Both the position numbers and the translations under genes were made by a program. The notes below the pieces were generated by a model, which saw only the letters and a program-made list of their open reading frames with translations, had not been told where the DNA came from and did not search any database. Below, piece after piece: positions 39,115-55,141 of a DNA stretch of 64,000 bases. This DNA comes from an uncultured Flavobacteriales bacterium. GTDB taxonomy: Bacteria > Bacteroidota > Bacteroidia > Flavobacteriales_D > Crocinitomicaceae. The stretch spans positions 1-64,000 of the forward strand of contig CAJXJK010000005.1 in the NCBI GenBank assembly GCA_913054135.1. The letters are read 5' to 3'. Position 1 is the first letter of the stretch. Every line of letters begins with the position of its first letter.

Positions 39115-39831
39115 ATGAAAAGAGCACTTTTTGGTGAGTTTTTGGGAACCTTCATTCTAGTTTTTGTGGGATGTGGTTCTGTGGCTTGGTCATTATTTAT
39201 TGATCCGCTATTGCTTTGGCAAATTGCACTCATATGGGGCTTCGGAGTTTGTTTAGCTATTATTTTATCATCTCCTTTTTCAAAAGCACATCTTAACCCT
39301 GCTGTGACAATAGGTTTTTGGATGAGTGCCGATTTTAAGCGGAAAGACATCTTACCATATATCATAGGGCAGCTTTCAGGAGCTTTTCTTGCAGCTGCGA
39401 GTTTGTTTCTGATCTTTCATTCTTACGCTCAGTTCCAAACTTCTGCAAATGCTCGATACTTAGGAGAGTATTATACTGAGACGTCCAACTTTGACATCTG
39501 GGCTGCAACAGGAGTTGAAGCAATTGGAACATTCTGTTTGATGTTCGGAATCTATTTAATCATCAAGATTGAGACGAAGCGAGCTAAGTTGATTCATCCT
39601 CTTTTAATAGGGGTATTACTATCTGTGCTAATCTTTTGGTTGGCGCCTTATACCCAAGCAGGTTTTAATCCGGCAAGAGATTTTATGCCAAGATTACTTA
39701 GTTATTTCGCAGGCTGGGATATGGCCTTTTCTTTTAACGGATTAGGCTGGTTAGTTGTCTACATTCTCGGGCCCATTGTTGGGGCAGGAGCTGCAGCAGT
39801 ATTGTATAGAATGATTATTGAGAGAAGGTAA
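39115..39831 (+). CDS. MIP family channel (aquaglyceroporin-like)
   Basis: A 238-residue, six-helix major intrinsic protein in the inner membrane. Both pore NPA motifs are present: HLNPAVT at 61-63 and GFNPARD at 185-187. Asp189 directly after the second NPA-Arg is the mark of glycerol facilitators rather than strict water channels. It starts at an ATG just after a -7-like box and ends 1 bp from the convergent zinc-ribbon gene. No glycerol kinase gene is nearby. Confidence 0.93.
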   Translation: MKRALFGEFLGTFILVFVGCGSVAWSLFIDPLLLWQIALIWGFGVCLAIILSSPFSKAHLNPAVTIGFWMSADFKRKDILPYIIGQLSGAFLAAASLFLIFHSYAQFQTSANARYLGEYYTETSNFDIWAATGVEAIGTFCLMFGIYLIIKIETKRAKLIHPLLIGVLLSVLIFWLAPYTQAGFNPARDFMPRLLSYFAGWDMAFSFNGLGWLVVYILGPIVGAGAAAVLYRMIIERR

Positions 39832-40119: not shown

Positions 40120-42537
40120 TTAATCTATGTTCCCAGTGAGCGCTTCAGAACAATTGATAACGTGATCTCCAACTTTCTCGCATGAAGAGAAAAGATTGTT
40201 GAATACCATTCCGCTACCCATATTGTATTCCTTGCTTCCAAGATTTTTGAGGTGTGCTTTACGCATTTCATCTCTCTTGGCATTAATCTCATTCTCAATT
40301 TCAATTGCCTTCTCAATAGATGCATCACCCCAATCAGCATTTAAATTCTCTACCATTACTTCAAGAGACTTGTCTACTAATGCAAAGATTTCTTGTAGAC
40401 TTTTTCTTTGCTCAGGAATGAAGTAAACTTTGTCGTTATCCTTACGCTCAATTGCTTTTGACATTTGGTAAAAGATATCTCCAATTCTTTCAAGGTCGTT
40501 CACAATTGAATTCATTGATCGAATTCTACTCGCCGTTTCTTCAGTCATTGTACCCGAAGCTACTTTCGCTAAATAAGTGGCTACTTCAATTTCAACCCTA
40601 TCCGTAATCTCTTCATACTTGGCAATTTTCTCGTGAAGATTTTTCTTCGTTTTTCTATTGACCTCAGTTAACAATTGCTGCGTAAATGTTGACATGCGGG
40701 CCGTGATAGCTCCGAATTTGGCAACTTCCTTTTTAGCTTCGTAGATTGACAGTTCAGGGGTTCCCATAATACCAGCTCCGATATAATCCAAGTGGAATTC
40801 TTCATCTGCACCACCTTTAGATTTCACTGTTCTCTCGGCAAGAGAAACCAATTTAGGCACAAACCAAACTAAAAGTAGTACGTTGGCAATGTTAAAAGCA
40901 GAGTGGAAAATTGCGATTCCCATATTGGCTGCATCCGAATCATTGAAAGGGTCACCTTCCATAAAGTAGGCAATGCCTTCTAAAAAGAATTGGAAAACGA
41001 AAATACACCAAACAACTCCAATCAAATTGAACAAGGCATGAATTCGGGCAGCTCTTTTCGCATGCACGTTTCCAATTAATGCAGCTAATTGAGCAGTAAT
41101 TGTAGTACCGATATTTTCACCTAAGATCATAGCGGCTGCTACTTCAAATGGTAATACGTTTCCTGCAACCAAAGCCATTGTAAGGGCCATGGCAGCTGAT
41201 GAAGATTGAATAACAACTGTCACCAAAGTACCCAATGCAACAAACATCAATGTGCCCAGAATTCCAGAATCTTTATAGTCAACAAAGAATTGCACTAAAG
41301 GTGACTCTACATCTAAATCAGGAACATTTTGTTTTAAGAAGCCAAGCCCCATGAAGAGTAAAGAGAATCCAATTATTACTGAGGCCCAATTTTTAATTGA
41401 ATCTTTTGAGAAGAATAACATTGGAGCACCAACGGCTATAAGAACTAATGCATAAGCTGAGATATCTACTTTAAATCCGAAGAATAGAATCAACCAAGCA
41501 GTTAATGTTGTTCCGATATTCGCACCCATCAATACGCCGACAGATTGTTTTAAGGTCATCAAACCGGCATTTACGAAACTTACCGTCATTACCGTGGTAA
41601 CCGAGGACGATTGAACAACTGATGTAATTCCGAATCCCGTTAATATTCCTTTAAGTCTATTTTTGGTGATTGAGGCAAGCATGTTTCTCAATCTAGAACC
41701 TGCTGCTTTTTGTAATCCTTCAGACATGATTTTCATTCCGAAAATGAATAGACCTAAGGCACCAATTAAAATCAATGTTTTAAATACTCCCCAACTTCTT
41801 TTGGTTTTGAACTCACCTTTTTCTGACCAAACCGTTCCTTGATTGGTATGGAATCCAACTTTATAAACGTATTTTTCACCACCTACTAAGCTGTCAAGCT
41901 TACATGTAACTAGGTCTGTTGAGAGTCCTTCTATTTTGGTCCATTTAGAAACGGAGTGATCAGCTTTGTTTTGTTTGGCTCCAATTGATGTATTATACTT
42001 TATTATGAATTCAGACTCAGGGAATGTAGTAGTCAATTCATTCAGTTTATTGTTTTGAAGTGCCCAAGAAAACTTAACTCCTTCAACCTTACCTTCGGCC
42101 GAGTTATTATCAAATAGGGTATAGCTTAATGTGTGAAGGAATCTTGACTCCGTCTCAAATTCTAACATTTTGGCACTTGGTCCTGAACCAAATTTGAATT
42201 CAAAGATTTCGTTCTCAGGCAAATTAACAACAGTAATTGCTGTACCATTGGCAACAATTTCAGATTGCTTCCAGTCTTGTTCACCAGATTGTCTATATTG
42301 AATTCCGTAAAATTTGTCAGCAGCTGAAGCAGAGTCCCATTGAATGGTTAAATCACCATAGTCAAAAGCTTCAAGGGTTTTGTCGTGAGTTGCATTTTCA
42401 AATTCAATTTCAATTGAATCAAGTTTAACTGAGATTGTTTGAATTTGTTCAACTGGATTTAGAGAGTCTTGAAAGCTCAGTGCATTTGGAGCGAATCCTA
42501 AAAGGCAAGCAAATAAAACAAAATAAAACTTAGACAT
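40120..42537 (-). CDS. Na/Pi cotransporter with fibronectin-III N-terminus and PhoU C-terminus
   Basis: An 805-residue inner-membrane transporter. It has a signal peptide (MSKFYFVLFACLLGFAPNALS), then about 220 residues with two fibronectin-III-like domains (WDSASAADKFYGIQYRQSG and YNTSIGAKQNKADHSVSKW regions). The Na_Pi_cotrans core runs from about 250 to 555, with the paired pore motifs QSSSVTT (about 309) and QSSSAAM (about 449) and GANIGTT/GENIGTT. A PhoU-like helical domain follows (about 580-800). It should import phosphate with Na+. Exported FnIII domains in front are unusual. It is divergent from a PhoB-like regulator and has a repeat array upstream. Confidence 0.9.
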   Translation of the reverse strand: MSKFYFVLFACLLGFAPNALSFQDSLNPVEQIQTISVKLDSIEIEFENATHDKTLEAFDYGDLTIQWDSASAADKFYGIQYRQSGEQDWKQSEIVANGTAITVVNLPENEIFEFKFGSGPSAKMLEFETESRFLHTLSYTLFDNNSAEGKVEGVKFSWALQNNKLNELTTTFPESEFIIKYNTSIGAKQNKADHSVSKWTKIEGLSTDLVTCKLDSLVGGEKYVYKVGFHTNQGTVWSEKGEFKTKRSWGVFKTLILIGALGLFIFGMKIMSEGLQKAAGSRLRNMLASITKNRLKGILTGFGITSVVQSSSVTTVMTVSFVNAGLMTLKQSVGVLMGANIGTTLTAWLILFFGFKVDISAYALVLIAVGAPMLFFSKDSIKNWASVIIGFSLLFMGLGFLKQNVPDLDVESPLVQFFVDYKDSGILGTLMFVALGTLVTVVIQSSSAAMALTMALVAGNVLPFEVAAAMILGENIGTTITAQLAALIGNVHAKRAARIHALFNLIGVVWCIFVFQFFLEGIAYFMEGDPFNDSDAANMGIAIFHSAFNIANVLLLVWFVPKLVSLAERTVKSKGGADEEFHLDYIGAGIMGTPELSIYEAKKEVAKFGAITARMSTFTQQLLTEVNRKTKKNLHEKIAKYEEITDRVEIEVATYLAKVASGTMTEETASRIRSMNSIVNDLERIGDIFYQMSKAIERKDNDKVYFIPEQRKSLQEIFALVDKSLEVMVENLNADWGDASIEKAIEIENEINAKRDEMRKAHLKNLGSKEYNMGSGMVFNNLFSSCEKVGDHVINCSEALTGNID

Positions 42538-42557
42538 TCTCTATTTAAAAGTGCAGA

Positions 42558-42565
42558 CAAAAATA
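42558..42565 (-). promoter_or_regulatory. -7 element of the Na/Pi cotransporter gene
   Basis: On the minus strand it reads TATTTTTG, a perfect TAnnTTTG, 20 bp upstream of the ATG. The direct repeats at 42596-42612 lie 30 bp upstream of it. Confidence 0.5.
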
Positions 42566-42595
42566 GTTAATAAAAACTGAATCTCTTTTATCCAA

Positions 42596-42612
42596 TGTTA
42601 AGCATGTGTTAA
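42596..42612 (-). promoter_or_regulatory. Putative response-regulator box A (two 11-bp-phased TTAAC repeats)
   Basis: On the minus strand this reads TTAACACATGCTTAACA: two TTAAC words exactly 11 bp apart, pointing toward the Na/Pi cotransporter gene. A weaker GTAAA word lies one more turn upstream. PHO boxes have the same layout (7-bp direct repeats spaced by 4 bp). Confidence 0.5.
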
Positions 42613-42711
42613 TTAAATTTACGTATAATCGTATTAAATCTATTTCTTATTTTTTTAGTCTTTTTGATTAGACTATTGAAGTAGAGAGTTTTATGATGGA
42701 AATATAGCGCT

Positions 42712-43386
42712 ATGGCCAAAAAGATCTTGATTATTGATGACGAATTGGATATTCGTATTCTCTTGAAATTCAACCTTGAAAAGGCGGGTTTTGAGGTAGA
42801 GGTAGCTGAAAATGGATTGATAGGTCTTGATTTGGCTCAAAAAATTAGACCCGACCTCATAATTTTGGATGTCATGATGCCAGAAATGGATGGTATTGAA
42901 ACCTGCGAAAAAATCAAGGCTTTACCAGATCTGAAACAAACTATGATTTGTTTTTTAACGGCTAGAGGAGAAGATTATTCTCAATTGGCTGGTTTTGAAG
43001 CTGGGGCAGATGATTATATCACCAAGCCGGTTAAACCCAAAATTTTAGTCAGTAAAATAAATGCACTGCTAAGAAGATCACTCCCAAAAGTAGAAGAGAA
43101 TCAATCTGATGCGAACTCGCGTGTTCGAATTAACCGAGAGCGCTACTTAGTTTATGTGGAAGATGAGAAAATTGTACTTCCGCGAAAAGAATTTGAATTG
43201 CTGGCGCTTTTAATGTCTGAACCGGGGAAAGTATTTCAAAGAGAAGAGATCATGAATCGTGTTTGGGGTTCCGAAGTTGTCGTAGGCGACAGAACGATTG
43301 ATGTTCATATCAGAAAGCTTAGGAAGAAACTTGGCGAAAATCACATTGAAACTATCAAAGGTGTGGGTTATAAGTTTGAAGCTTAA
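42712..43386 (+). CDS. OmpR/PhoB-family response regulator 1
   Basis: A 224-residue DNA-binding response regulator. The receiver domain (1-120) is complete: acidic pocket Asp9/Asp10, phospho-acceptor Asp53 in ILDVMMPEMDG, switch Thr in FLTARGEDYS and Lys105 in TKPVKP. The winged-helix C-terminal domain (about 130-224) has the PhoB-like recognition stretch DRTIDVHIRKLRKKLG and KGVGYKF. It is divergent from the Na/Pi cotransporter and shares a 174-bp regulatory region with it, which suggests a phosphate-related role. No histidine kinase gene is adjacent. Confidence 0.92.
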   Translation: MAKKILIIDDELDIRILLKFNLEKAGFEVEVAENGLIGLDLAQKIRPDLIILDVMMPEMDGIETCEKIKALPDLKQTMICFLTARGEDYSQLAGFEAGADDYITKPVKPKILVSKINALLRRSLPKVEENQSDANSRVRINRERYLVYVEDEKIVLPRKEFELLALLMSEPGKVFQREEIMNRVWGSEVVVGDRTIDVHIRKLRKKLGENHIETIKGVGYKFEA

Positions 43387-43772
43387 TCGTATCTCCAGCC
43401 TTTTCCTTTAGAATGTACATGGCCAGTAGAGTCTATTGTGAGACCAAACTCACACCAAGCATAACCTGACGACATGTACCATGGTGTTTCTTTATCCATT
43501 AGTTTTCCGTCTTGAGTAAATGTGAACTTTGTTAATGAGTCATAAGTGACTTCTCTATAGAGTGGTTGACCCAAGAATTCAAGAACCAATGTCGAATCAT
43601 GACGGGCTTCAATTAAGTCAAATTTTTCAGGTGAGAATTTATCATTCCATTGCGTATCAACATAGGGGTCAAAAATGTAGTACTGATCTGGTCCGAAGAA
43701 GTATACCCAAGCTATTATAAGACTGAGTAAACTGAGAACTGAGATCAAGAAAATTTTTAAGATTAGCCGCAC
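43383..43772 (-). CDS. Small membrane-anchored protein of unknown function
   Basis: A 129-residue protein with one N-terminal membrane helix (ILKIFLISVLSLLSLIIAWVYFF) and an extracytoplasmic domain rich in aromatic residues. It starts at a GTG. Its 3' end overlaps the end of response regulator 1 by 4 bp (convergent). I do not recognise it. Confidence 0.6.
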   Translation of the reverse strand: MRLILKIFLISVLSLLSLIIAWVYFFGPDQYYIFDPYVDTQWNDKFSPEKFDLIEARHDSTLVLEFLGQPLYREVTYDSLTKFTFTQDGKLMDKETPWYMSSGYAWCEFGLTIDSTGHVHSKGKGWRYD

Positions 43773-43808
43773 TCATTTAGAACGGATTGCACAAAAGTTT
43801 ATTGCAAC

Positions 43809-43842
43809 AAAAAGGGCTGTCTCTCTCGAGAAACAGCCCTTA
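43809..43842 (-). terminator. Terminator of beta-helix lipoprotein gene 1
   Basis: AAGGGCTGT (43812-43820) pairs with ACAGCCCTT (43833-43841). On the minus strand the hairpin is followed by TTTTTG. It lies just downstream of the lipoprotein stop at 43867. Confidence 0.85.
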
Positions 43843-43866
43843 GCTTTGTTATGATAGGTTGGTGGC

Positions 43867-45099
43867 TTAAAGCGCTTTAGTCCATCCTGTGTTCCATCCT
43901 GCATCAGCACCAACTCCTGAACCGTTAACAGCATTTGTTAACATAGTTGCAGTGTTAGTTGAATCAGTTCCAGCAGTGATGTTAGCAACACCATCATTAG
44001 TTACGTTAGTAGTAGTTACGTTAGTGATAACCAAAGTACCAGCAGTAACGTTTGCACCAGTAACATCATGTTGGATGTCGATACCGTCTTGAGCACCATC
44101 AATTGAGATGTTGTCTAAGTTACCAGCAGTTCCTTCTCTTAATTTGATAGCATCTTTACCTGCAGCAATTCCTCTACCAATAATAGTAAGTTTAGAAATT
44201 GTTGGAGTTGACATTGGAGTCGCAGCATTGTTTGATCCATTGTTGTCAGCTTCGATAGCTCTATCACCTAATGTTGGGTCTTGCTCAACGATCCAGTTAG
44301 TTCCTGTTCCTGACCATCCGTGTGTCCAGTCAAAAGAATCATCACCATTTCCTGTAGATACTGCGTAAGATAAGTTAGCAGTTCCTCCGAAGAATTCGAA
44401 TCCGTCATCATTTCCTCTGTACGCTTGTAAGTGGTTTAATGTAGTTCCTGATCCAACTCCGTTGAAAGAAAATCCGTTCAATTCGTTATCAGTAGAAAGT
44501 AATTTACCAGCATACTCAACTCTTATGTAACACATTGTTCCTGAGTTGTCAGCAGAATTTGTTCCACCATAAATACCAGTTCCACCTTCACCTTCGGCAG
44601 TAGCACCTGTATTGATTGGAGCATATCCATTTAAGATAATTCCTCCCCAGTCACCAGCAGCTGGTGTAGAAGAAGCAGGAGTAAAGATGATTGGCGCAGC
44701 AGCAGTTCCACATGCGTTGATTGTTCCTCCTTGAGAAACTGATAAAAATGGAACGGTTCCATCATCTGCAGTATTAACTGTTGTTCCAGCTTCAATAGTT
44801 AAAGTAACACCAGCATCAACAAAAACACCACCTGATAATAACCAGTTTGAAGCAGCATCCAATGTTAAGTCTGCATCAATGTTACCTGTTAATTGGTTGT
44901 AAGTTGTACCGTCATAAACAACTTCTGTCCATGGGTTAGATACATACGTACAAGGGTTATCTGGATCATCTTTTTTAGCTTCTTCGTTATAGTTGGTAGC
45001 TGTTGGATCTGTACATCCTTTTTTCTTACAAGATGGAGTGATTGCAACTAATCCTCCTACTAATGCCATTCCTAAAATGGCTGACTTATTGATTTTCAT
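43867..45099 (-). CDS. Beta-helix-like lipoprotein 1, partner of a TonB-dependent receptor
   Basis: A 410-residue surface or periplasmic lipoprotein. The signal peptide ends at AITPSC, with lipidated Cys24 followed by KKK. The frame is open to 45153, but ATG 45099 starts the signal peptide. Directly after comes GCTDPTATNYNEEAKKDD, an Asp-rich Cys motif common in secreted Bacteroidota proteins. The rest (about 60-400) is Gly/Asn/Thr-rich with repeats like LTIEAGTTV, GDWGGIILNG and NELNGFSFNGVGSGTTL, which suggests a right-handed beta helix. It lies downstream of TonB receptor 1 and is a distant paralog of the protein at 49284-50540. I infer that the two proteins act together in capture or uptake; the ligand is unknown. 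Confidence 0.8.
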   Translation of the reverse strand: MKINKSAILGMALVGGLVAITPSCKKKGCTDPTATNYNEEAKKDDPDNPCTYVSNPWTEVVYDGTTYNQLTGNIDADLTLDAASNWLLSGGVFVDAGVTLTIEAGTTVNTADDGTVPFLSVSQGGTINACGTAAAPIIFTPASSTPAAGDWGGIILNGYAPINTGATAEGEGGTGIYGGTNSADNSGTMCYIRVEYAGKLLSTDNELNGFSFNGVGSGTTLNHLQAYRGNDDGFEFFGGTANLSYAVSTGNGDDSFDWTHGWSGTGTNWIVEQDPTLGDRAIEADNNGSNNAATPMSTPTISKLTIIGRGIAAGKDAIKLREGTAGNLDNISIDGAQDGIDIQHDVTGANVTAGTLVITNVTTTNVTNDGVANITAGTDSTNTATMLTNAVNGSGVGADAGWNTGWTKAL

Positions 45100-45139
45100 T
45101 TCTTTTAATTTTTTCTTTTGATTCAAATTATTTACACTG

Positions 45140-45147
45140 CAAATATC
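45140..45147 (-). promoter_or_regulatory. Putative -7 element of lipoprotein gene 1
   Basis: On the minus strand it reads GATATTTG (followed by C), one base from TAnnTTTG. The lipoprotein 2 gene has the same kind of variant (GACATTTG). Confidence 0.35.
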
Positions 45148-45177
45148 AGCCAATTACTCTGGAAAAAATTTACCCTC

Positions 45178-45233
45178 AAGTTATAGTTGTGTTACCAAAC
45201 AGTGAAGTTGAATTAACATTAAGGTAAAGTTGA
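45178..45233 (-). promoter_or_regulatory. Putative response-regulator box B (degenerate 11-bp-phased repeats)
   Basis: On the minus strand TCAAC, TTAAT and TCAAC start 11 bp apart (45233, 45222, 45211), and GTAAC and ATAAC start 11 bp apart (45195, 45184). The words are weaker than in the other arrays, but the pitch is the same. The array lies upstream of the lipoprotein 1 -7 box. Confidence 0.35.
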
Positions 45234-45235
45234 AA

Positions 45236-45268
45236 GCAAAAAAACTCCCACACTAAGTGCAGGAGTTT
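45236..45268 (-). terminator. Terminator of TonB-dependent receptor gene 1
   Basis: AAACTCCCACAC (45242-45253) pairs with GTGCAGGAGTTT (45257-45268), 10 of 12 positions. On the minus strand the hairpin is followed by a T run. It separates the receptor gene from lipoprotein gene 1. Confidence 0.8.
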
Positions 45269-45304
45269 AATAGAAAATATATGGTGATTTAAATTAAATC
45301 CAGA

Positions 45305-48271
45305 TTAATCAACCTTTACAGGTTTTTTGGTATTCTTGATGAATGTGTAAGAAACAGAAAGGCTTAAATCCATCCCTCTTCTGAAACTAGATACATTCAA
45401 CTCTTGTCCAACATTCACTCTGTCTTCTTGAACAACATTAATGTATGGGTTCAACAAGTTCTTTCCTTTAATTCCAATTGAGAATTTATCATTGAAAGTT
45501 ACTTTTGAAACCAAGTTCAATGTGCTAACTGGTTTTGCATATTGATCTCCAATTCCGTTTCCACCAACTGCAACTAATCTTTGTCCGAATACATTGTAAG
45601 CAAGAGCAACTAATACTGTTTTAGTATTTCCAGCTTCGTTTTCGAATGTTTGGTTATATCTCAAATCACAGTTTACTAAGAAAGGAGATGCTCCTTCTAG
45701 TGGTCTTCTGAAATTAGTACTGTTGTTTCCGCCGTCTAATGTGTCAATAGTAACTTGTGTCCACATGTAAGAAGCGTTGAATCCTAAACCAAAGTTCTTT
45801 AAGAACGAAGAATCTCTTTTTTCTTCTTTCAATAAAAAGTCTAAAGATCTTACATACTCAACTTCTATTCCTGCAACATGACCTTGCTTAGCATTTGAGA
45901 AAGAAGCTAATTGCCCTGAAGCCGTTCCTCTCATTGTTTGCTCAATTGGGTTTTGTAAGAATTTGTAGAATGCACCAACAGTCATCATTTCTCCTGGTCT
46001 TGCATATCTCTCGTATCTGAAATCAGCATTGTAGTTCGTTCCGTTTCTTAATTCAGGATTTCCTTGTGCTTTTGTTCCAGCAAAGAACTGAATGTATTGG
46101 AAAGGTGCAATCTCGTTAAACTTAGGTCTTGTAATTGTTTTACTTGCAACAAATCTTAAGATGTCTTTATCAGTTGCAGAATACTTCATGATTAATGATG
46201 GTAGTAATCCTTCAAGCATGCTGTTTGGTACAATAGTCTTGTTGAATTCAGAAGGTGTTACCTGATCTCTGTTAAAGATTGATTGGTAAGCATTTTCACA
46301 TCTTAATCCAGGAATCACTTCTAATTTGTTGAATCTGAATTTAGCATCAACATACAGTGCCATAACTGATTGCTCAGCAACATAAGAAGAACCGAAGTTA
46401 GATAACTCATCAATGTAGAATAATCCAGCTTGGTGATTTTCATTAGACAAGTAGTCATCTGTTCCGTAGATATCTACTGGTTGGATGCTATCCGCTAAGG
46501 CCTTTAAGTTATAGTTGTACTGCTTGTAATCAAACTCTCTGATTTTTTTCTTGTAATCAACACCACCTCTAATTGTGATAAGGTCAGTTACTTCAGTTTG
46601 TTTTCTGTCATTTAATTCTTCTTTGAACTTAACAACATAGGCAGCATGAACTTTCCCAGAAATTTCTCTTTCTCTTAAGATTGAGAAGAATCTGTGATTT
46701 TCGTTAACATCAAGTTCGTTCCAACGATCATAAGAATCTGTTGCCGCAGGATCACCAGTATAAAGAGCAACTAACTGCTTTCTGTCTGGCTCTTTGCTGC
46801 CTGTAAAGTTCACAGAAGCTCTCCAATCCACTACTAATCTAGCGAAATTCACATCTTCTTTATGTGTCATGAATTTGTGTGTTCCGATTAGTTGATTCAC
46901 ATTCAAATAATTTTGCTTGTAAGTCATTCTTCTTGAATACACATTGTACGGATCGTAATCAAAGTGATATCCCCAAGTTTCTCTTGTTTCATCATTTGAT
47001 TTGTTCACATATAAAGAGTTAAAGCTGATGTTGTGATCAGGATTGATTCTTACATACATGTTTAATAAACCAGTAGTTGAAGTTTCGTAGTTGTATTTAT
47101 ACACATCATAGTTTAAACGCTCTTCACTTTGTGCGTTAATGATTTTTACTACACCTTCTTGGTATTTTAAAGAGTTGTCATTTTTCAAAAGTGCTAACCA
47201 TCCAAATCCTTTTGATTTTTCAGTTGCTCCTTTAAAAGGTTTGAAGGCTCCAGCCGAAACTGAGAAGCTTGTGTTCGGACGGGCAGTTTGCTCAACTAAA
47301 CCAAAGTTGTTGGCAAAGCTTGATCCGATATCAGGGTTAGTGATATATAATTTATCTGGGAAGATGCTATTTACACCTGGGAAAGAAGTTAAGTCTTTTG
47401 AGTTTTCAAAAACTCCCATTGGAATGTTTCTTGATCCGTCATCAAATCCAAAGAAATCAAATTTACCACCATTGTAAGTTTTGAATGTCTTACCAATAGT
47501 TTGTGTATTTGCTCCAGTACCCATTGAGATTTTGAAGGTAGGATCATTGTAAAAGCTCTTAGTTGTAATGTTGAATGCTCCACCAGCAAAATCGCCATAT
47601 AATTCAGAGGACATTACTTTAGAAACTTGAACTGAACTTACAATATCAGTTGGGAATAAATCTAAAGGCACAACTCTAAAGTCAGGATCTGGAGAAGGAA
47701 GAGGAAGACCGTTGAAGTAAGCAACATTGTATCTGTCTCCTAAACCTCTTACGTAAAGTACATTTCCTACAGTTGAAAGACCAGTGATTTTCTTTACACC
47801 ACCTCCTACATCAGATTCTCCTTTTTCACTGAATTGTTTTGCAGTAACAACTTGAACAACCTTATCGTCATCTTTTGTGTCTTTTGCAGCTTTTGCTTCA
47901 CCTCCGCCATCTGGTTTTAATTTACCATTCACAACTACCATTGGTAATTCGTCATTAGCCGTCATTTGAACTTCAAGTACTTGATTTTCTCCTTCAACAA
48001 TATCAAAGGCGATTGTATCTTGATTTAAACCAGTGTAGCTTACAATGATGTGATGTACTCCCGGATTCAATGTAAAATTGAAGTTTCCTTCAAAATCAGT
48101 TTGAAAGAATTGACCTTCTTCAACCTCTCTAACTTTTGCAAAAACTAAAGGCTTCTTAGTTCCTTCGTCTATTTGGAAAAGGTTTCCGCTAACAGTTCCT
48201 GTTTGAGCAAAGCCTGAGCCGCCTGCAAGGAACGTTAAGATTAATAATAGATTTAACTTTTTCATTACCAT
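45305..48271 (-). CDS. TonB-dependent receptor 1 with CarboxypepD-reg-like N-terminus
   Basis: A 988-residue outer-membrane TonB-dependent transporter. It has a signal peptide (to GFAQ, about residue 23), a carboxypeptidase-regulatory-like beta domain (about 24-115), an Asp/Lys-rich linker and a plug domain (about 140-260) with the subgroup motif YVRGLGDRYN and DFAGGAFNITTKSF. A 22-strand-type barrel follows to the C-terminus. There is no SusD partner; instead a beta-helix lipoprotein gene follows and response regulator 2 is divergent. A start two codons later (48265) is equally possible. The substrate is unknown. Confidence 0.92.
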   Translation of the reverse strand: MVMKKLNLLLILTFLAGGSGFAQTGTVSGNLFQIDEGTKKPLVFAKVREVEEGQFFQTDFEGNFNFTLNPGVHHIIVSYTGLNQDTIAFDIVEGENQVLEVQMTANDELPMVVVNGKLKPDGGGEAKAAKDTKDDDKVVQVVTAKQFSEKGESDVGGGVKKITGLSTVGNVLYVRGLGDRYNVAYFNGLPLPSPDPDFRVVPLDLFPTDIVSSVQVSKVMSSELYGDFAGGAFNITTKSFYNDPTFKISMGTGANTQTIGKTFKTYNGGKFDFFGFDDGSRNIPMGVFENSKDLTSFPGVNSIFPDKLYITNPDIGSSFANNFGLVEQTARPNTSFSVSAGAFKPFKGATEKSKGFGWLALLKNDNSLKYQEGVVKIINAQSEERLNYDVYKYNYETSTTGLLNMYVRINPDHNISFNSLYVNKSNDETRETWGYHFDYDPYNVYSRRMTYKQNYLNVNQLIGTHKFMTHKEDVNFARLVVDWRASVNFTGSKEPDRKQLVALYTGDPAATDSYDRWNELDVNENHRFFSILREREISGKVHAAYVVKFKEELNDRKQTEVTDLITIRGGVDYKKKIREFDYKQYNYNLKALADSIQPVDIYGTDDYLSNENHQAGLFYIDELSNFGSSYVAEQSVMALYVDAKFRFNKLEVIPGLRCENAYQSIFNRDQVTPSEFNKTIVPNSMLEGLLPSLIMKYSATDKDILRFVASKTITRPKFNEIAPFQYIQFFAGTKAQGNPELRNGTNYNADFRYERYARPGEMMTVGAFYKFLQNPIEQTMRGTASGQLASFSNAKQGHVAGIEVEYVRSLDFLLKEEKRDSSFLKNFGLGFNASYMWTQVTIDTLDGGNNSTNFRRPLEGASPFLVNCDLRYNQTFENEAGNTKTVLVALAYNVFGQRLVAVGGNGIGDQYAKPVSTLNLVSKVTFNDKFSIGIKGKNLLNPYINVVQEDRVNVGQELNVSSFRRGMDLSLSVSYTFIKNTKKPVKVD

Positions 48272-48284
48272 TTATTTTCTGCCG

Positions 48285-48292
48285 CAAAGGTA
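48285..48292 (-). promoter_or_regulatory. -7 element of TonB-dependent receptor gene 1
   Basis: On the minus strand it reads TACCTTTG followed by C, a perfect TAnnTTTG, 13 bp upstream of the start codon. No good -33 TTG is seen, which would fit an activator-dependent promoter. Confidence 0.5.
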
Positions 48293-48337
48293 TGGTGAGA
48301 GCAAGTCTCTTTTTGGATTTTGGGTGTTATGGATTAG

Positions 48338-48386
48338 TTAAAATTCGGTAACATTGAGTTAACATAGTAGGTTATAATTATTTAAC
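48338..48386 (+). promoter_or_regulatory. Putative response-regulator box C (phased TTAAC repeats)
   Basis: TTAAA, GTAAC, TTAAC and TTAAC start at 48338, 48348, 48359 and 48382. The core GTAACATTGAGTTAACAT is a pair of 7-bp repeats separated by 4 bp. The array lies between divergent TonB receptor 1 and response regulator 2 and points toward the regulator. Confidence 0.5.
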
Positions 48387-48429
48387 TTATTATTAAAAAG
48401 GATTGAACATCAAGACAATATTAGTAAGG

Positions 48430-48437
48430 TACTTTTG
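48430..48437 (+). promoter_or_regulatory. -7 element of response regulator gene 2
   Basis: TACTTTTG followed by C, a perfect TAnnTTTG, lies 22 bp upstream of the GTG start. Confidence 0.45.
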
Positions 48438-48459
48438 CCCTTAAACTTTTAAAATCAAG

Positions 48460-49131
48460 GTGGACCTGAAAGTACTAATCGTTGATGATGAGCTCGGATA
48501 TTTATCTGAGGTAGCGCAGTATCTAAATAAAAAAGGTATTAGTACTTGTTGTTCTTCAACAGGAGAAGTTGCCATTTCTGATGTAATAAACACAAATCCA
48601 GATGTAGTTTTGATAAATTCAGAATTGCCAGATACAAGTGGGATAGAAATTTGCAAGCAGTTAAATGCCAATAAGTATCCAGGGGTGATTTTGGTGACTT
48701 CAGAAAAAGAAACGGAACAAATATTTTTGGACACTTATCATGCTGGAGGTATTGGCGTGGTGAATAGGAATGAAAGCGTCAATGTTCTTTACCATAAAAT
48801 TTTAGCTCTTGGAAGAAGATTGGATAAGGACTATGTGCAGGTGGGGTCAACTTTCTATTATTATGGTAACCTTAGCTTGTCTGACAATGAACGAGCTCGC
48901 GCTTTGCCTCGAATTGAATATCTCTTGCTAAAGATGTTTGTTGGTTCAGGAGGAAAAGTAATTACGAGAAAGAGGATAATGACTTCTATTTGGGAACATC
49001 AAGAAGAATCTAGTCGAAATATTGACATGTATATTTATAAGTTGCGCTCTATAATCGGAAAAGGAAAAATCATCACCATAACAGGTGTAGGCTATAAGTA
49101 TCAGCCAGATGAGCTAAAAGCTTGTTGCTAA
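48460..49131 (+). CDS. OmpR-family response regulator 2 with degenerate receiver
   Basis: A 223-residue regulator starting at a GTG. The receiver-like domain (1-115) keeps the acidic pair Asp9/Asp10, but the phospho-acceptor position is Asn53 (VVLINSELPDTSG instead of LLDxxLP). The conserved Lys of the KP motif is also missing (GVVNRNES). It therefore probably cannot be phosphorylated in the normal way. The winged-helix domain (about 130-223) is intact (ITRKRIMTSIWEHQ, IDMYIYKLRSIIG, ITGVGYKYQ), but its recognition helix differs from that of the other two regulators. It ends in a Cys pair. It is divergent from TonB receptor 1. Confidence 0.88.
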   Translation: MDLKVLIVDDELGYLSEVAQYLNKKGISTCCSSTGEVAISDVINTNPDVVLINSELPDTSGIEICKQLNANKYPGVILVTSEKETEQIFLDTYHAGGIGVVNRNESVNVLYHKILALGRRLDKDYVQVGSTFYYYGNLSLSDNERARALPRIEYLLLKMFVGSGGKVITRKRIMTSIWEHQEESSRNIDMYIYKLRSIIGKGKIITITGVGYKYQPDELKACC

Positions 49132-49144
49132 GAAGATTATTCTC

Positions 49145-49224
49145 TTGTTGCTACATTGATGTTTCCTTAACATTAAAGAGGTTCTCTTAACGGATTCTTA
49201 ATAGAAGAATAAAATGCTTCTAAC
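49145..49224 (+). promoter_or_regulatory. Putative response-regulator box D (phased TTAAC repeats)
   Basis: TTGTTGC, TTGATGT and TTAACAT start at 49145, 49156 and 49167 (11-bp steps). TTAACGG and TTAATAG start at 49187 and 49198 (11 bp), and CTAAC at 49220 (two turns further). The array lies upstream of lipoprotein gene 2. Confidence 0.45.
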
Positions 49225-49245
49225 AGCTCTAGAGTTTTAATGAAG

Positions 49246-49253
49246 GACATTTG
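49246..49253 (+). promoter_or_regulatory. Putative -7 element of lipoprotein gene 2
   Basis: GACATTTG, one base from TAnnTTTG, 30 bp upstream of ATG 49284. It resembles the box of lipoprotein gene 1. Confidence 0.35.
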
Positions 49254-49283
49254 TACCGAAAATTTAAATCAAAATAAAAAAAA

Positions 49284-50540
49284 ATGAAAAAAAATTTCAC
49301 ATTAGTAGCAATGGCCGTAATCGGATTAGCTGCTATTACTTCATCTTGTAAGAAAGAAGGATGTACTGATCCTACAGCCGCAAATTACAATGAAGAAATT
49401 AAAGAAAAGAATGATGATGGATCATGTGTTTACATCTGGGAGACTGTTGATACTGTTTATGTAGGTTCAAACATTTCTGCGAACACAACATGGGAAACAG
49501 GTAAAACTTACATCTTAACTGATAGAGTTGCAGTAACTGCTGGAGCTACTTTGACTATCGAGCCAGGTGTAGTTGTAAAAGGTGAAGCTGGAACTGGAGC
49601 TAATGCAACAGCTTTGATTATTGCTAGAGATGCAAAATTAATGGCTCAAGGAACTGCAGCTTCTCCAATTATCTTTACATCAGTTGCTGATGATATCGTG
49701 CCTGGACAAATTGCTTCTCCAAATTTATCAACTGACTTGGATGGTTTATGGGGTGGACTAATCGTATTAGGAAACGCTAAGATTTCTGTTGCCTCTGGAA
49801 CTGAAGCTCAAATTGAAGGAATTCCTGCTTCTGATTCAAACGGAAAATACGGTGGATCTGATGACGCGGACAACTCTGGAGTTATCCAATACATTTCAAT
49901 TCGTCACGGTGGAGCAAACATTGGAGACGGTAACGAAATTAACGGATTAACTTGTGGTGGTGTTGGTACTGGTACTACTATCGATCACGTTGAGATTATC
50001 TCTAACCAAGATGATGGTGTTGAAATGTTCGGTGGATCTGTAGACGTTTCTGATGTTGTTGTTTTAAACACAGGTGATGATGGATTAGATACTGACCAAG
50101 GTTATTCAGGAACTATCAGCAACTTTATCGTAATTAATGCTGGTGATGCTGCAATGGAGCTTGACGGAATCGAAGGTTCTGATTTAGGAAACGGAAACCA
50201 TACTTTCTCTAACGGTGGAGTTAAAGTTGATGGTGGTTCTGAGTTATGTGATACTGATGCTAACACTAACGTAAACATGAACAATATCTTCTGGTACGAT
50301 TTCGAATCAGGATCTGTTTTCACTGAGTTACCAACAACTTCAGTTGTAGCACCAGTGTTTTCTTCTTTCGAAGCTAACATTCCTGCAGGAGACGCAATCA
50401 CTGATTACTTTTTAAGTGGTTCTGATGCTGCTGTTACTGATGTAGCTGTAGGTTCTCAAACTGTTGGTCCAACTAAATCGGCTTTCGATACTTGGACTTG
50501 GACAGCAATTCATGCAGATGGATACTTAGCTGACTTTTAA
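49284..50540 (+). CDS. Beta-helix-like lipoprotein 2, partner of a TonB-dependent receptor
   Basis: A 418-residue lipoprotein with a signal peptide ending at AITSSC (lipidated Cys22), then CTDPTAANYNEEIKEKNDDG. The body has Gly/Asn-rich repeats typical of a parallel beta helix: LTIEPGVVVKGE, GLWGGLIVLGNAKI, YGGSDDADNSGVIQYISIRH, GNEINGLTCGGVGTGTTIDH. It is a paralog of lipoprotein 1, and alignable stretches share the NELNGF/NEINGL and DDGFEFFGG/DDGVEMFGG motifs. The TonB receptor 2 gene follows after a hairpin. I infer a cell-surface binding role beside the receptor. Confidence 0.82.
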   Translation: MKKNFTLVAMAVIGLAAITSSCKKEGCTDPTAANYNEEIKEKNDDGSCVYIWETVDTVYVGSNISANTTWETGKTYILTDRVAVTAGATLTIEPGVVVKGEAGTGANATALIIARDAKLMAQGTAASPIIFTSVADDIVPGQIASPNLSTDLDGLWGGLIVLGNAKISVASGTEAQIEGIPASDSNGKYGGSDDADNSGVIQYISIRHGGANIGDGNEINGLTCGGVGTGTTIDHVEIISNQDDGVEMFGGSVDVSDVVVLNTGDDGLDTDQGYSGTISNFIVINAGDAAMELDGIEGSDLGNGNHTFSNGGVKVDGGSELCDTDANTNVNMNNIFWYDFESGSVFTELPTTSVVAPVFSSFEANIPAGDAITDYFLSGSDAAVTDVAVGSQTVGPTKSAFDTWTWTAIHADGYLADF

Positions 50541-50562
50541 TATTTGATTCATATTAGAAATT

Positions 50563-50594
50563 AACTCGCAGGTCTTTTAGGCCTGCGAGTTTTT
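50563..50594 (+). terminator. Terminator between lipoprotein 2 and TonB receptor 2
   Basis: A perfect 10-bp stem AACTCGCAGG / CCTGCGAGTT (50563-50572, 50582-50591) with a 9-nt loop and a short T run. It may end the lipoprotein transcript or partly attenuate read-through into the receptor gene. Confidence 0.85.
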
Positions 50595-50632
50595 GATTTT
50601 CGAAAACAACTCTCAATAAACTTTCTCAACAA

Positions 50633-53554
50633 ATGAAAACTATGAAACACATATTGGTATTAATGTTTCTAATCCCAATTTCTTTATTTGGACAAGAAAA
50701 AGGTTCAATTAGAGGACAAGTATTTGATCAAGAATATGGTCAAACAATACTTGGAGCTAAAATTAGAGTTGTTGGACAACCAGCGGGTGGAATGTCTGAT
50801 CTTGATGGGAAGTTCAATATATCAATGAATCCTGGCGTTTACGAATTAAGGCTGACATTCACAGGCAAAGATACTATGCTGATCAATGATGTGAAGGTTA
50901 CTGCCAATGAGGTAACACTTTTAGATAACCTGCAAATGACAACGGGTAGCAACCAACTTAAAACGGTTGTAGTAACAGTTGAGAAGGTTGATAATACTGA
51001 GAATGCCGTATTGAATTTAAAAAAGACATCTACTAGTTTAATTGACGGTATATCATCAGCTAACTTTAGAAAAATTGGAGATTCAGATGCTGCCGGAGCT
51101 ATGAAAAGAGTGCCAGGAGTCTCAATTGTTGGAGGAAAGTACGTTTACGTAAGAGGGCTAGGAGACAGATACAGCAAAACAATACTAAATGGGATTGATA
51201 TCCCCGGGCTTGACCCAGACAGAAATGCTATTCAAATGGATATCTTCCCGACAAGTATCTTGGATAACATTATTGTAAATAAAACATTTATAGCAGAGCT
51301 TCCTGCTGATTTTACTGGAGGAATTGTAGATATAGGTCTAAAAAGTTTCCCAGATAAACAAAAAAGAAGTATTTCAATAAGTTCTGCATACAATCCAAAC
51401 TTTCATTTTCAATCAGAATATTTAGATTATGATGGTGGAAAATTAGATTTCTTAGGGTTTGATGATGGAACTAGAGAGATCCCTACCGCTGATATTAATG
51501 ATTCTGACATTCCTACATTTGTTGATGCCTTCACTAGTACAGAAGATTCCGCGGTATATGTAGGAATTTTAAGAGATTTTAATCCAACAATGGCTGCTAT
51601 GCAGAGAATGAGCTTGATGGATTTTGGAGTTTCTACTTCATTTGGTAATCAATTCAAAAAAGATAGCGGATTAACTATTGGATATAATGTGGTTGGGTCA
51701 TACAGCAATTCAACTGAATATTATGATGAGGCTACATTTGCGAGATACCTGCTTTCACCAACTCTTACGGAAACAAAGTTAGATTCAGGAGAGTACCAAA
51801 CAGGTAGCTTTGGAGTAAATAATGTCTTACTTACGGGAATGGCTGGATTTGCAGTTAAGTCTAAGTACTCAAAAGTTGTTGTAAATCTATTACACATTCA
51901 AAATGGTGAATCGAGAGCGGGTCAATATACCTATGATAACTATGCACAAGGTTCCACTTTTGAAGGTGTTCAAAATAACCTTTCATACACTCAAAGGTCA
52001 ATGACCAATTTATATATTGGAGGTAAACATGACTTTTATGATAAAGGAAAAGGATGGAAATTTGAATGGAAAGTTGCTCCAACACTATCTATAGTTAATG
52101 ATCCCGATATTCGCTTTACAAGATTCGAGCTTAGAAATGATTCATTGTTGATCGGAACCGAAGCAGGATTCCCTGAAAGAATTTGGAGAGAGTTAGTAGA
52201 GAAAAGTGTAGCATCAAAAGTGGATTGGCAAAAAGATTTTAAAAGTTTTGAAAATCCTGCTGTTTTAAAATTTGGTGGTGCTTATACATTCAAGATTAGA
52301 GATTATGCAATACGTAACTTCCAATTGAACCCAAGAAATATTTCCACTACAGGAGATCCTAATGAATTATTAAATGAGGATAATTTATGGCCTTATAATG
52401 GCGACTTCACTCAAGGAACCACTTATGAAGCTATGTTTATACCGAATAATCCTAATAAGTTTTCGTCCAACGCAATGACTGCTGGTGCATATGTTTCAAC
52501 GGCATTGAATCCTACGAAAAAATTTAAAATGACTTTGGGAGTGAGGTCTGAATACTATGTTCAAAGATATACAGGTACTGATCAGCTAGAAACAATTGTC
52601 TTGAACAATGATAAAGTGCTCGAGAAAATTGGAATTTTCCCAAGTGTGAATTTAGTTTATGCCGTAAATGATGAGCAAAATTTGAGATTCTCTTACGGAA
52701 GAACTGTTGCAAGACCTTCGTTTAAAGAATTGTCATACGCAGAGATTTATGACCCTATTACTGGTAGAACATTTATTGGTGGATTATTCCCTGACGTATT
52801 TACTTCAGGTGGAGATACTACAGTATTTTGGGATGGTAATTTAACTACTACAGACATTCATAATGTGGATTTAAGATGGGAATTATTCCACGGAGTAGGT
52901 CAAACAGTTTCTATTTCTTCTTTTTACAAAATGTTTATTAATCCTATAGAGATTGTACAGTTTGCTGTGCAGCCAGGTTCGTTTCAACCAAGAAATGTTG
53001 GAAACGGGACTGTGTTAGGTGCCGAATTAGAACTAAGACAATCTCTTGCATTTTTTGGAGATAAGTTGGAAAACTTTAATCTTTCCCTGAACGTCACCTA
53101 TGCTTACTCAAGAATCAAATTTTCAGAAACTGAAAAGCAATCACGAATTGATAATGCTAGAGTTGGTCAGGTAATTGGAGATTACCGTGAGATGGCCGGG
53201 CAGGCGCCATATGTGATAAATGCTGGATTTGCTTACAATGGTTCAAGAAAGAAAGATGCTAAATTCTTAAGAGGATTCGAAGCCGGAGCTTACTATAACG
53301 TTCAAGGCAAGACCCTTCAATATGTTGGAATCGCCAATTTACCAGATATCTATGCAGTACCTTTTCATAGCTTGAATGTTAATTTGAACAAATCGTTTGG
53401 TAAAAATCTGCAATGGAGATTAGGAATCAAAGTGACCAATTTATTAAATGATAAGAAAGAATCTATTTTTAATGCATACCAAGGTCAAGACGAATTTTTC
53501 CAAAGCTTGGCACCCGGAACGACTACAAGACTGAAGTTAGGGTTGAATTTCTAA
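50633..53554 (+). CDS. TonB-dependent receptor 2 with CarboxypepD-reg-like N-terminus
   Basis: A 973-residue outer-membrane transporter and paralog of TonB receptor 1. It has a signal peptide (to SLFGQ, about 21), a carboxypeptidase-regulatory-like domain (about 22-110), a plug (about 130-250) with YVRGLGDRYS and ELPADFTGGIVDIGLKSF, then a beta barrel. The shared GLGDRY motif and domain order place both receptors in one subgroup. No SusD homolog is near. A second in-frame ATG three codons in (50642) could also serve as the start. It lies between lipoprotein 2 and response regulator 3. The ligand is unknown. Confidence 0.92.
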   Translation: MKTMKHILVLMFLIPISLFGQEKGSIRGQVFDQEYGQTILGAKIRVVGQPAGGMSDLDGKFNISMNPGVYELRLTFTGKDTMLINDVKVTANEVTLLDNLQMTTGSNQLKTVVVTVEKVDNTENAVLNLKKTSTSLIDGISSANFRKIGDSDAAGAMKRVPGVSIVGGKYVYVRGLGDRYSKTILNGIDIPGLDPDRNAIQMDIFPTSILDNIIVNKTFIAELPADFTGGIVDIGLKSFPDKQKRSISISSAYNPNFHFQSEYLDYDGGKLDFLGFDDGTREIPTADINDSDIPTFVDAFTSTEDSAVYVGILRDFNPTMAAMQRMSLMDFGVSTSFGNQFKKDSGLTIGYNVVGSYSNSTEYYDEATFARYLLSPTLTETKLDSGEYQTGSFGVNNVLLTGMAGFAVKSKYSKVVVNLLHIQNGESRAGQYTYDNYAQGSTFEGVQNNLSYTQRSMTNLYIGGKHDFYDKGKGWKFEWKVAPTLSIVNDPDIRFTRFELRNDSLLIGTEAGFPERIWRELVEKSVASKVDWQKDFKSFENPAVLKFGGAYTFKIRDYAIRNFQLNPRNISTTGDPNELLNEDNLWPYNGDFTQGTTYEAMFIPNNPNKFSSNAMTAGAYVSTALNPTKKFKMTLGVRSEYYVQRYTGTDQLETIVLNNDKVLEKIGIFPSVNLVYAVNDEQNLRFSYGRTVARPSFKELSYAEIYDPITGRTFIGGLFPDVFTSGGDTTVFWDGNLTTTDIHNVDLRWELFHGVGQTVSISSFYKMFINPIEIVQFAVQPGSFQPRNVGNGTVLGAELELRQSLAFFGDKLENFNLSLNVTYAYSRIKFSETEKQSRIDNARVGQVIGDYREMAGQAPYVINAGFAYNGSRKKDAKFLRGFEAGAYYNVQGKTLQYVGIANLPDIYAVPFHSLNVNLNKSFGKNLQWRLGIKVTNLLNDKKESIFNAYQGQDEFFQSLAPGTTTRLKLGLNF

Positions 53555-53571
53555 GAGCTGCGAATAATTGT

Positions 53572-53610
53572 TTAACATTTGGTTAACCTTATAGCAACTT
53601 GCCTTAACCT
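53572..53610 (+). promoter_or_regulatory. Putative response-regulator box E (four phased repeats)
   Basis: TTAACAT, TTAACCT, GCAACTT and TTAACCT start at 53572, 53583, 53594 and 53604, i.e. steps of 11, 11 and 10 bp. It is the clearest array in the window. A -7-like TAATTTTA at 53620-53627 lies just downstream, before response regulator 3. Confidence 0.6.
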
Positions 53611-53645
53611 AAAATGGGATAATTTTATACAAACAAAAGAAAAGA

Positions 53646-54311
53646 ATGCAAGGATTAAAATTACTGATAGTAGATGATGAGCCGGATATTGTAGATATGT
53701 TAGCTTACAACTTTGAGCAGGAGGGCATGACGGTAAGTAAGGCTTACAATGGTACTGATGCAATTAGAATTGCTGAATCAGAAGTGCCACAAGTAATTTT
53801 ATTAGATGTTATGATGCCTGATGTGGATGGCATAGAAGTATGTGAAACCTTAAGACAAAACAGTGAACTTAAGAATACTTTGATCATTTTCTTGAGTGCG
53901 AGAGGAGAAGATTATTCTCAGGTTGCAGGATATAAAGCAGGTGCTGATGACTATGTGGTTAAGCCTGTAAGAGTGAAGATTTTAAAGCACAAAATTGAAG
54001 TGCTTCTCAATAGATTTGGGGCAAAGAATGAAAGTGTAGATGAAAGTAATATCACTATAAACAAACAGAGGTATACTGTATCACATTTAGGCGAAGAACA
54101 TATTATCCCCAAGAAAGAATTTGAATTATTAGCGCTATTGCTATCTTCTCCAGAGAGAGTGTATCGTAGAGATGAGATTTTGAGAGATGTTTGGGGAGAT
54201 GCTGTAATTGGAGATAGAACGATTGATGTTCATGTCAGAAAATTGCGTGAGCGTTTTGGAGATAATGTTATCCAAACCGTTAAGGGTGTGGGCTATAAGT
54301 TTGCAGGTTAA
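53646..54311 (+). CDS. OmpR/PhoB-family response regulator 3
   Basis: A 221-residue response regulator close in sequence to regulator 1 (shared ARGEDYSQ, AGADDY and RTIDVHVRKLRE blocks). The receiver is intact, with Asp10/Asp11, phospho-acceptor Asp54 (LLDVMMPDVDG) and Lys106. The winged helix is PhoB-like and ends KGVGYKFAG. The phased repeat array just upstream suggests autoregulation or control by a sister regulator. It ends at a bidirectional terminator. No cognate kinase is in the window. Confidence 0.92.
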   Translation: MQGLKLLIVDDEPDIVDMLAYNFEQEGMTVSKAYNGTDAIRIAESEVPQVILLDVMMPDVDGIEVCETLRQNSELKNTLIIFLSARGEDYSQVAGYKAGADDYVVKPVRVKILKHKIEVLLNRFGAKNESVDESNITINKQRYTVSHLGEEHIIPKKEFELLALLLSSPERVYRRDEILRDVWGDAVIGDRTIDVHVRKLRERFGDNVIQTVKGVGYKFAG

Positions 54312-55039: not shown

Positions 55040-55141
55040 TTTTTGATTTTAAAATCAAGTTAAGATATTTTTTAAATGATGTTGAGGCTCGTCACCTAAA
55101 GTGGGTAAACCATTGATTTAAGAGTTATTGAACTTTTATAA

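Follow-up and report, generated by a model that had tools for sequence, protein, structure and literature searches.

Arrays of 11-bp TTAAC repeats as probable PHO boxes in a Crocinitomicaceae gene block with PhoB-like regulators

The DNA analyzed here is a stretch of 64,000 nucleotides from an uncultured Flavobacteriales bacterium of the family Crocinitomicaceae (contig CAJXJK010000005.1, positions 1 to 64,000), referred to as the window. It contains a block of genes for a sodium/phosphate (Na/Pi) cotransporter, two lipoprotein/TonB-dependent receptor modules, and three OmpR-type regulators, and the intergenic regions of this block carry arrays of TTAAC-like units. These arrays are very probably the PHO boxes of a Bacteroidota group, at which phosphorylated PhoB-like regulators would activate the promoters of the block under phosphate scarcity, a proposal that is built on sequence comparison. 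The arrays are conserved among relatives, stand at fixed distances from the promoter, and precede genes for Na/Pi cotransporters as well as pst-phoU operons. They share with PHO boxes the direct repeats with an 11-bp pitch, a constant distance from the promoter on one helical phase, and placement before phosphate-uptake genes.

Repeat arrays and promoter spacing

An earlier note on this DNA, made from the letters alone, had described five arrays, lettered A to E here, and all five are present in the sequence. Array A (42587..42612, minus strand; TTAAC at 42612-42608 and 42601-42597, ATAAA at 42591-42587) faces the Na/Pi cotransporter gene, and array B (45169..45195, minus strand; GTAAC at 45195, ATAAC at 45184, GTAAA at 45173) faces the gene for lipoprotein 1, its promoter-phased units adjoining the conspicuous TTAACATTAAG without coinciding with it. 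Region C resolves into two arrays: C1 (48326..48362, minus strand; TTAAC at 48362, TTACC at 48351, TTAAC at 48341, ATAAC at 48330) is directed toward TonB receptor 1, and C2 (48382..48408, plus strand; TTAAC, TTAAA, TGAAC) is directed toward regulator 2. On the plus strand, array D (49167..49224; TTAAC at 49167, TTAAC at 49187, TTAAT at 49198, ATAAA at 49209, CTAAC at 49220) faces lipoprotein 2, and array E (53572..53608; TTAAC at 53572, TTAAC at 53583, GCAAC at 53594, TTAAC at 53604) faces regulator 3.

Bacteroidota promoters carry the element TAnnTTTG at −7, and an element of this type, exact or nearly so, lies between each array and its gene. On the minus strand these elements are TATTTTTG for the Na/Pi cotransporter (42558..42565; array A units 26, 36, and 47 bp upstream), GATATTTG for lipoprotein 1 (45140..45147; array B units at 26, 37, and 48 bp), and TACCTTTG for TonB receptor 1 (48285..48292; array C1 units at 70, 59, 49, and 38 bp). 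On the plus strand they are TACTTTTG for regulator 2 (48430..48437; array C2 units at 48, 37, and 26 bp), GACATTTG for lipoprotein 2 (49246..49253; the last four array D units at 59, 48, 37, and 26 bp), and TAATTTTA for regulator 3 (53620..53627; array E units at 48, 37, 26, and 16 bp). The spacing of 26/37/48 bp, in which successive units are one helical turn apart, is thus common to lipoprotein 1, regulator 2, lipoprotein 2, and regulator 3; units at 16, 59, and 70 bp were read directly from the sequence. When array and −7 element were combined in a composite promoter score, the Na/Pi cotransporter and regulator 2 (C2) exceeded all 211 background promoters, and the number of background promoters scoring as high was 1 for regulator 3, 3 for lipoprotein 1, 6 for TonB receptor 1, and 11 for lipoprotein 2. 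By the same test, no convincing array of its own precedes regulator 1 or TonB receptor 2. The 92-bp gap between lipoprotein 2 and TonB receptor 2 lacks an array, and these two genes are therefore probably cotranscribed.

When chains of three TTAAC-like units with a pitch of 10 to 12 bp were scored, C, E, A, D, and B ranked first, second, third, fifth, and sixth, respectively, among the 31 intergenic regions of the window. The cutoff reached by all five was reached by 6 regions in total, versus 0.74 expected from Markov shuffles; the remaining high scorer (55040-55141) was rejected, having no matching promoter spacing. Because the chain score uses the earlier note's own word and is partly circular, three independent tests were added. 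A matrix for the 11-bp unit was trained on promoters of relatives only and applied to a held-out background from the genome itself, which comprised 175 intergenic regions (23 kb) taken from 20 stretches of 20 kb. Regions C, A, and E scored above all 175 background regions, 4 of which exceeded D and 5 of which exceeded B (Mann-Whitney p = 6e-8). In the relatives' promoters, TTAAC had the largest excess of pairs at 11 bp of all 512 strand-collapsed 5-mers, and a motif search from random starts likewise returned tandem TTAAC at 11 bp. The bare pair TTAAC-N6-TTAAC was uninformative genome-wide, with no enrichment (18 sites versus 67 for the reversed control); specificity resides in the extra units and the promoter spacing. 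Three units with two mismatches, tried as a search pattern, gave common and mostly scattered sites of low specificity.

Conservation in relatives and a blind genome search

Relatives of regulator 3 are present in 59/59 genomes examined. In 20 neighborhoods, a locus can be recognized that consists of the Na/Pi cotransporter, regulator 1, one or more lipoprotein/TonB receptor modules, and regulator 3; it is most complete in the same genus and in three further genera of the family. (A contig scan with regulator 3, from which near relatives are excluded, matched chiefly remote phyla and was not used.) An array score of at least 7.5 was found in 37/55 orthologous upstream regions versus 10/91 other gaps of the same loci (Fisher p = 2e-12). 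With one mismatch allowed, TTAAC pairs in the relatives' target promoters peaked at 11 bp (151 pairs), 22 bp (85), and 32-33 bp (63 and 56), against about 25 at background spacings. The earlier note took the arrays for operators of the regulators encoded alongside them and named two findings that would overturn this reading: repeats equally frequent in random intergenic DNA of the genome, or no conservation upstream of orthologous genes. The 175-region held-out test and the counts for orthologous regions point the other way on both matters, and the operator reading stands to that extent; which regulator binds is a further step that we infer.

The distance to the promoter is conserved as well. 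In the relatives' target promoters, TTAAC units lie 26-27, 37-38, 48-49, and 70 bp upstream of TAnnTTTG, and 23/34 of these promoters fall in phase classes 4-5 modulo 11, i.e., 2 of 11 classes (p = 3e-10). The background of the genome itself had no phase preference, where 4 promoters qualified per array and pooled counts were flat.

The exact pattern TTAAC-N6-TTAAC-N31-33-TAnnTTTG was then searched blindly in the 59 whole genomes and matched 29 times, versus 4 times for the reversed pattern; array A is the single match in the genome studied here. The genes directly after the 29 matches comprise 15 Na/Pi cotransporters (13 identified by BLASTP and two by tblastn) and one regulator 3 orthologue, among others. 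Operons were accepted as pst only if pstC, pstB, and phoU were all present, and two such operons, from sister genera (L242 and L244), were examined. Both have, before pstS, an array with the 48/37/26 promoter spacing, and in one of them pstC is preceded by a further array. The shared architecture of Na/Pi cotransporter and pst-phoU promoters strengthens the link to phosphate that was made at the outset. Several PBP_like_2 matches in relatives were set aside because their operons are not of the pst type, and most of these matches lack a convincing array; another locus (L246) encodes PBP, permease-like, and ABC proteins, and neither phoU nor an array was seen there. In one relative, the genes for the Na/Pi transporter and regulator 1 flank a gene for a Porin_O_P (phosphate-selective porin) protein.

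Regulators, phosphate supply, and alternative explanations

Regulators 1 (42712..43386, plus strand) and 3 (53646..54311, plus strand) consist of a receiver and a winged helix, keep the phospho-Asp and the Lys, and have a PhoB-like recognition helix. Their helices, DRTIDVHIRKLR and DRTIDVHVRKLR, are nearly equal to that of Escherichia coli PhoB, which we take to be DRTVDVHIRRLR, in agreement with the aligned PDB chains. The best two NCBIfam matches of both proteins are PhoB models, and the top solved structures for the DNA-binding domain of regulator 3 are E. coli PhoB chains, including DNA complexes. In a phylogenetic tree, the two regulators fall into separate, well supported groups, each of which extends across several genera. 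One regulator 3 orthologue (L053:11136-11783, genome G032) contains an in-frame TAA stop. Regulator 2 (48460..49131, plus strand) is different, with Asn at the phospho-Asp position, Arg at the conserved Lys, and an altered recognition helix, so that the usual phosphorylation site is lost. No close relative of it was found in the 58 other genomes. Its site, opposite TonB receptor 1, is that of regulator 3 in genome G001, and regulator 2 is therefore probably a decayed or re-purposed copy. A treatment of the three regulators as equivalent is not supported: regulator 2 is degenerate in its receiver and recognition helix, and no convincing array was found before regulator 1.

In sister genera, a PhoR-like kinase gene lies directly downstream of a PhoB-like gene. 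Its orthologue here (contig 8, 152432-153460; 51% identity over the full length) is unlinked to the block, lies away from any PhoB-like gene, and is lined up, as in an operon, with genes resembling gldD and gldE (L236:4427-5470; the gld names were given by eye). Several sister genera likewise have the kinase gene apart from those of regulators 1 and 3. With this kinase on another contig and good candidate sites elsewhere in the genome, the block is not the self-contained regulon envisaged earlier. We propose that phosphorylated regulator 3, regulator 1, or both would bind the 11-bp TTAAC-type units head to tail, with one protomer per helical turn, and that regulators placed 26/37/48 bp upstream of TAnnTTTG would activate RNA polymerase. 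The targets when phosphate is scarce would be the Na/Pi cotransporter, both lipoprotein/TonB receptor modules, and regulator 3 itself, and the kinase encoded on contig 8 would be the phosphoryl donor.

The Na/Pi cotransporter (40120..42537, minus strand; 805 amino acids) has a C-terminal PhoU domain; the protein matches Pfam PF02690 (3e-63) and PF01895 (5e-10) and NCBIfam NF037997. It holds the only PhoU matches in the genome, which has no separate PhoU. Neither this genome nor its genus yielded a match to the PstS family, and PstS matches are present in 28/59 genomes; plant-associated Bacteroidetes without PstS have been reported (PMC8115612). The absence of PstS from the genus, the confinement of PhoU to the cotransporter, the unlinked kinase, and the degenerate regulator 2 leave room for a speculative scheme, to which we give limited credence. 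In such a PstS-less regulon, the PhoU domain of the cotransporter might sense phosphate and restrain the unlinked PhoR kinase, the two PhoB-like paralogues might share the output, and the non-phosphorylatable regulator 2 might tune the promoters. The genome, lacking detectable PstS and a separate PhoU, offers a setting for asking how phosphate is sensed. An aquaporin-like gene (assigned by eye; 39115-39831) lies beside the cotransporter gene and is kept in relatives (L049:3320-4057; L055:11643-12800); at the latter locus, it adjoins a gene resembling low-molecular-weight phosphatase/arsenate reductase. These neighbors hint at arsenite export linked to phosphate uptake.

The two modules are encoded by lipoprotein 1 (43867..45099, minus strand; 410 amino acids from ATG) with TonB receptor 1 (45305..48271, minus strand; Pfam PF07715 and PF13715) and by lipoprotein 2 (49284..50540, plus strand; 418 amino acids) with TonB receptor 2 (50633..53554, plus strand). 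The lipoproteins are 38% identical, and neither has a Pfam or NCBIfam match. The AlphaFold model of lipoprotein 2, made from a two-sequence alignment, was too poor for use (mean predicted local distance difference test score, 42).

Several observations weigh against the identification of the arrays as PHO boxes. Regulators 1 and 3 are PhoB-like proteins and not PhoB equivalogs: their scores against TIGR02154/NF053854 are 211/209 and 189/181 bits, respectively, below the curated equivalog cutoffs of 296 and 270. One mismatch is present in each of the −7 elements assigned to lipoprotein 1, lipoprotein 2, and regulator 3, array D stands only moderately above background in the composite test (11/211 as high), and TTAAC is nearly palindromic (GTTAAC), which makes unit orientation ambiguous. 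The relatives are phylogenetically linked and not independent, and their genes are plain open reading frame calls. Finally, the study of Riemerella anatipestifer PhoP ties this regulator chiefly to genes for virulence and redox functions and not to phosphate (PMC9603813). The arrays could accordingly be OmpR-family operators that answer to another signal, such as envelope or redox stress: in R. anatipestifer, the GLPGLI, bat, and cytochrome genes are under the control of PhoP, which has TTTAACA in its motif (PMC9603813), and some high-scoring sites here precede genes without a known phosphate role. We regard this as unlikely, given that 15/29 blind composite matches fall on Na/Pi cotransporters, that bona fide pst-phoU operons bear the composite site, and that low phosphate induces the matching cluster of Flavobacterium johnsoniae (PMC8115612).

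The arrays might instead be bound mainly by regulator 2, or serve as its site for repression or competition, in a local circuit apart from the general PHO response. Regulator 2 is encoded inside the block, has its own array C2 with good promoter spacing, and has a receiver that is not phosphorylatable in the usual way; its recognition helix is changed, however, and the arrays are kept in many of the 58 genomes that have no close relative of it, which makes this explanation very improbable. Chance occurrence of the repeats in intergenic DNA that is rich in AT is scarcely credible as an explanation. The lack of genome-wide enrichment of the bare pair and the abundance of three-unit arrays with two mismatches would fit it, but background regions have none of the held-out ranking, cross-genome conservation, 11-bp harmonics, or fixed promoter phase of the arrays, and for A, C, and E the held-out ranking already refutes it.

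Comparison with known systems and other candidate sites

The PHO boxes bound by E. coli PhoB and by PhoP of Bacillus subtilis and Streptomyces are tandem 11-bp direct repeats before phosphate genes (PMC4415409), as are the arrays described here. In E. coli, the repeats are placed 10 bp ahead of the −10 element (PMC1906773). The recognition helix is nearly identical to that of E. coli PhoB, and, to within 1-2 bp, the arrays face the promoter from the same side of the helix. Unlike the boxes of these three bacteria, whose core is CTGTCAT or GTTCACC, the arrays have the core TTAAC, usually comprise three or more units, place the main units one turn further upstream (26/37/48 versus about 17/28), and belong to promoters with the Bacteroidota −7 element TAnnTTTG. 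The cyanobacterial SphR box, CTTAACCT with 3-bp linkers (PMC1906773), shares the TTAAC core, the 11-bp pitch, and the presence of three or more repeats; it differs in phylum, promoter type, and targets, and the consensus here is weaker beyond TTAAC.

Among Bacteroidota, the motif of R. anatipestifer PhoP from DNA affinity purification sequencing has TTTAACA as its most conserved bases, and regulator family and core word agree with those found here. The comparison of PhoP with regulators 1 and 3 is by family and motif word, not by orthology. That motif was likened to ArcA, and the available part of the report does not mention an 11-bp array, promoter spacing, or phosphate genes (PMC9603813). 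Low phosphate induces the phoBR operon of F. johnsoniae, which comes with a TonB receptor and lipoproteins (PMC8115612). By gene content, this phoBR/PUSIV cluster resembles the block in having a phoB-like gene beside a TonB receptor and an outer membrane lipoprotein, in an OprP-type porin nearby, and in the frequent absence of PstS (PMC8115612). The block differs in its two lipoprotein/TonB modules, its two PhoB-like paralogues plus a degenerate third, the Na/Pi-PhoU cotransporter within it, and the lack of a linked phoR. The F. johnsoniae lipoproteins belong to an FI/FII/FIII family with a pectin-lyase-like fold; the lipoproteins of the block have no Pfam match, and the two clusters were compared by gene content. 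Bacteroides fragilis PhoB binds the pstC promoter (PMC3547664). No definition of a Bacteroidota PHO box or of its promoter spacing was found in the literature searched. New here are an explicit definition of the box that includes the distance to the promoter, the specificity that this box shows genome-wide for Na/Pi cotransporters, and the unusual wiring of the block. The definition, with the spacing to TAnnTTTG, is testable and makes the phosphate regulons of this Bacteroidota group predictable from sequence.

Further sites resembling the arrays occur elsewhere in the genome. A single 2.5-kb stretch (G000:C2:206290-208807; L220:6290-8807) contains four of the five background regions that score highest with the array matrix. 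These four lie between genes for small lipoproteins, for a protein with a lamin-tail domain, and for a PadR-like regulator; three of them have fair promoter spacing, and the stretch is possibly another regulated locus. The top composite promoter score among the genome candidates (23.6) belongs to a site at G000:C3:252859, whose units begin at offset 28 and follow at intervals of 12 and 11 bp, before a gene (L234, 3998-6550) for a secreted protein of 851 amino acids that is lamin-tail-domain-like by eye. The most perfect array of the genome (G000:C11:138932-138969), with three exact TTAAC units at 11 bp and a fourth, ATAAG, is antisense to a gene of unknown function encoding 337 amino acids.

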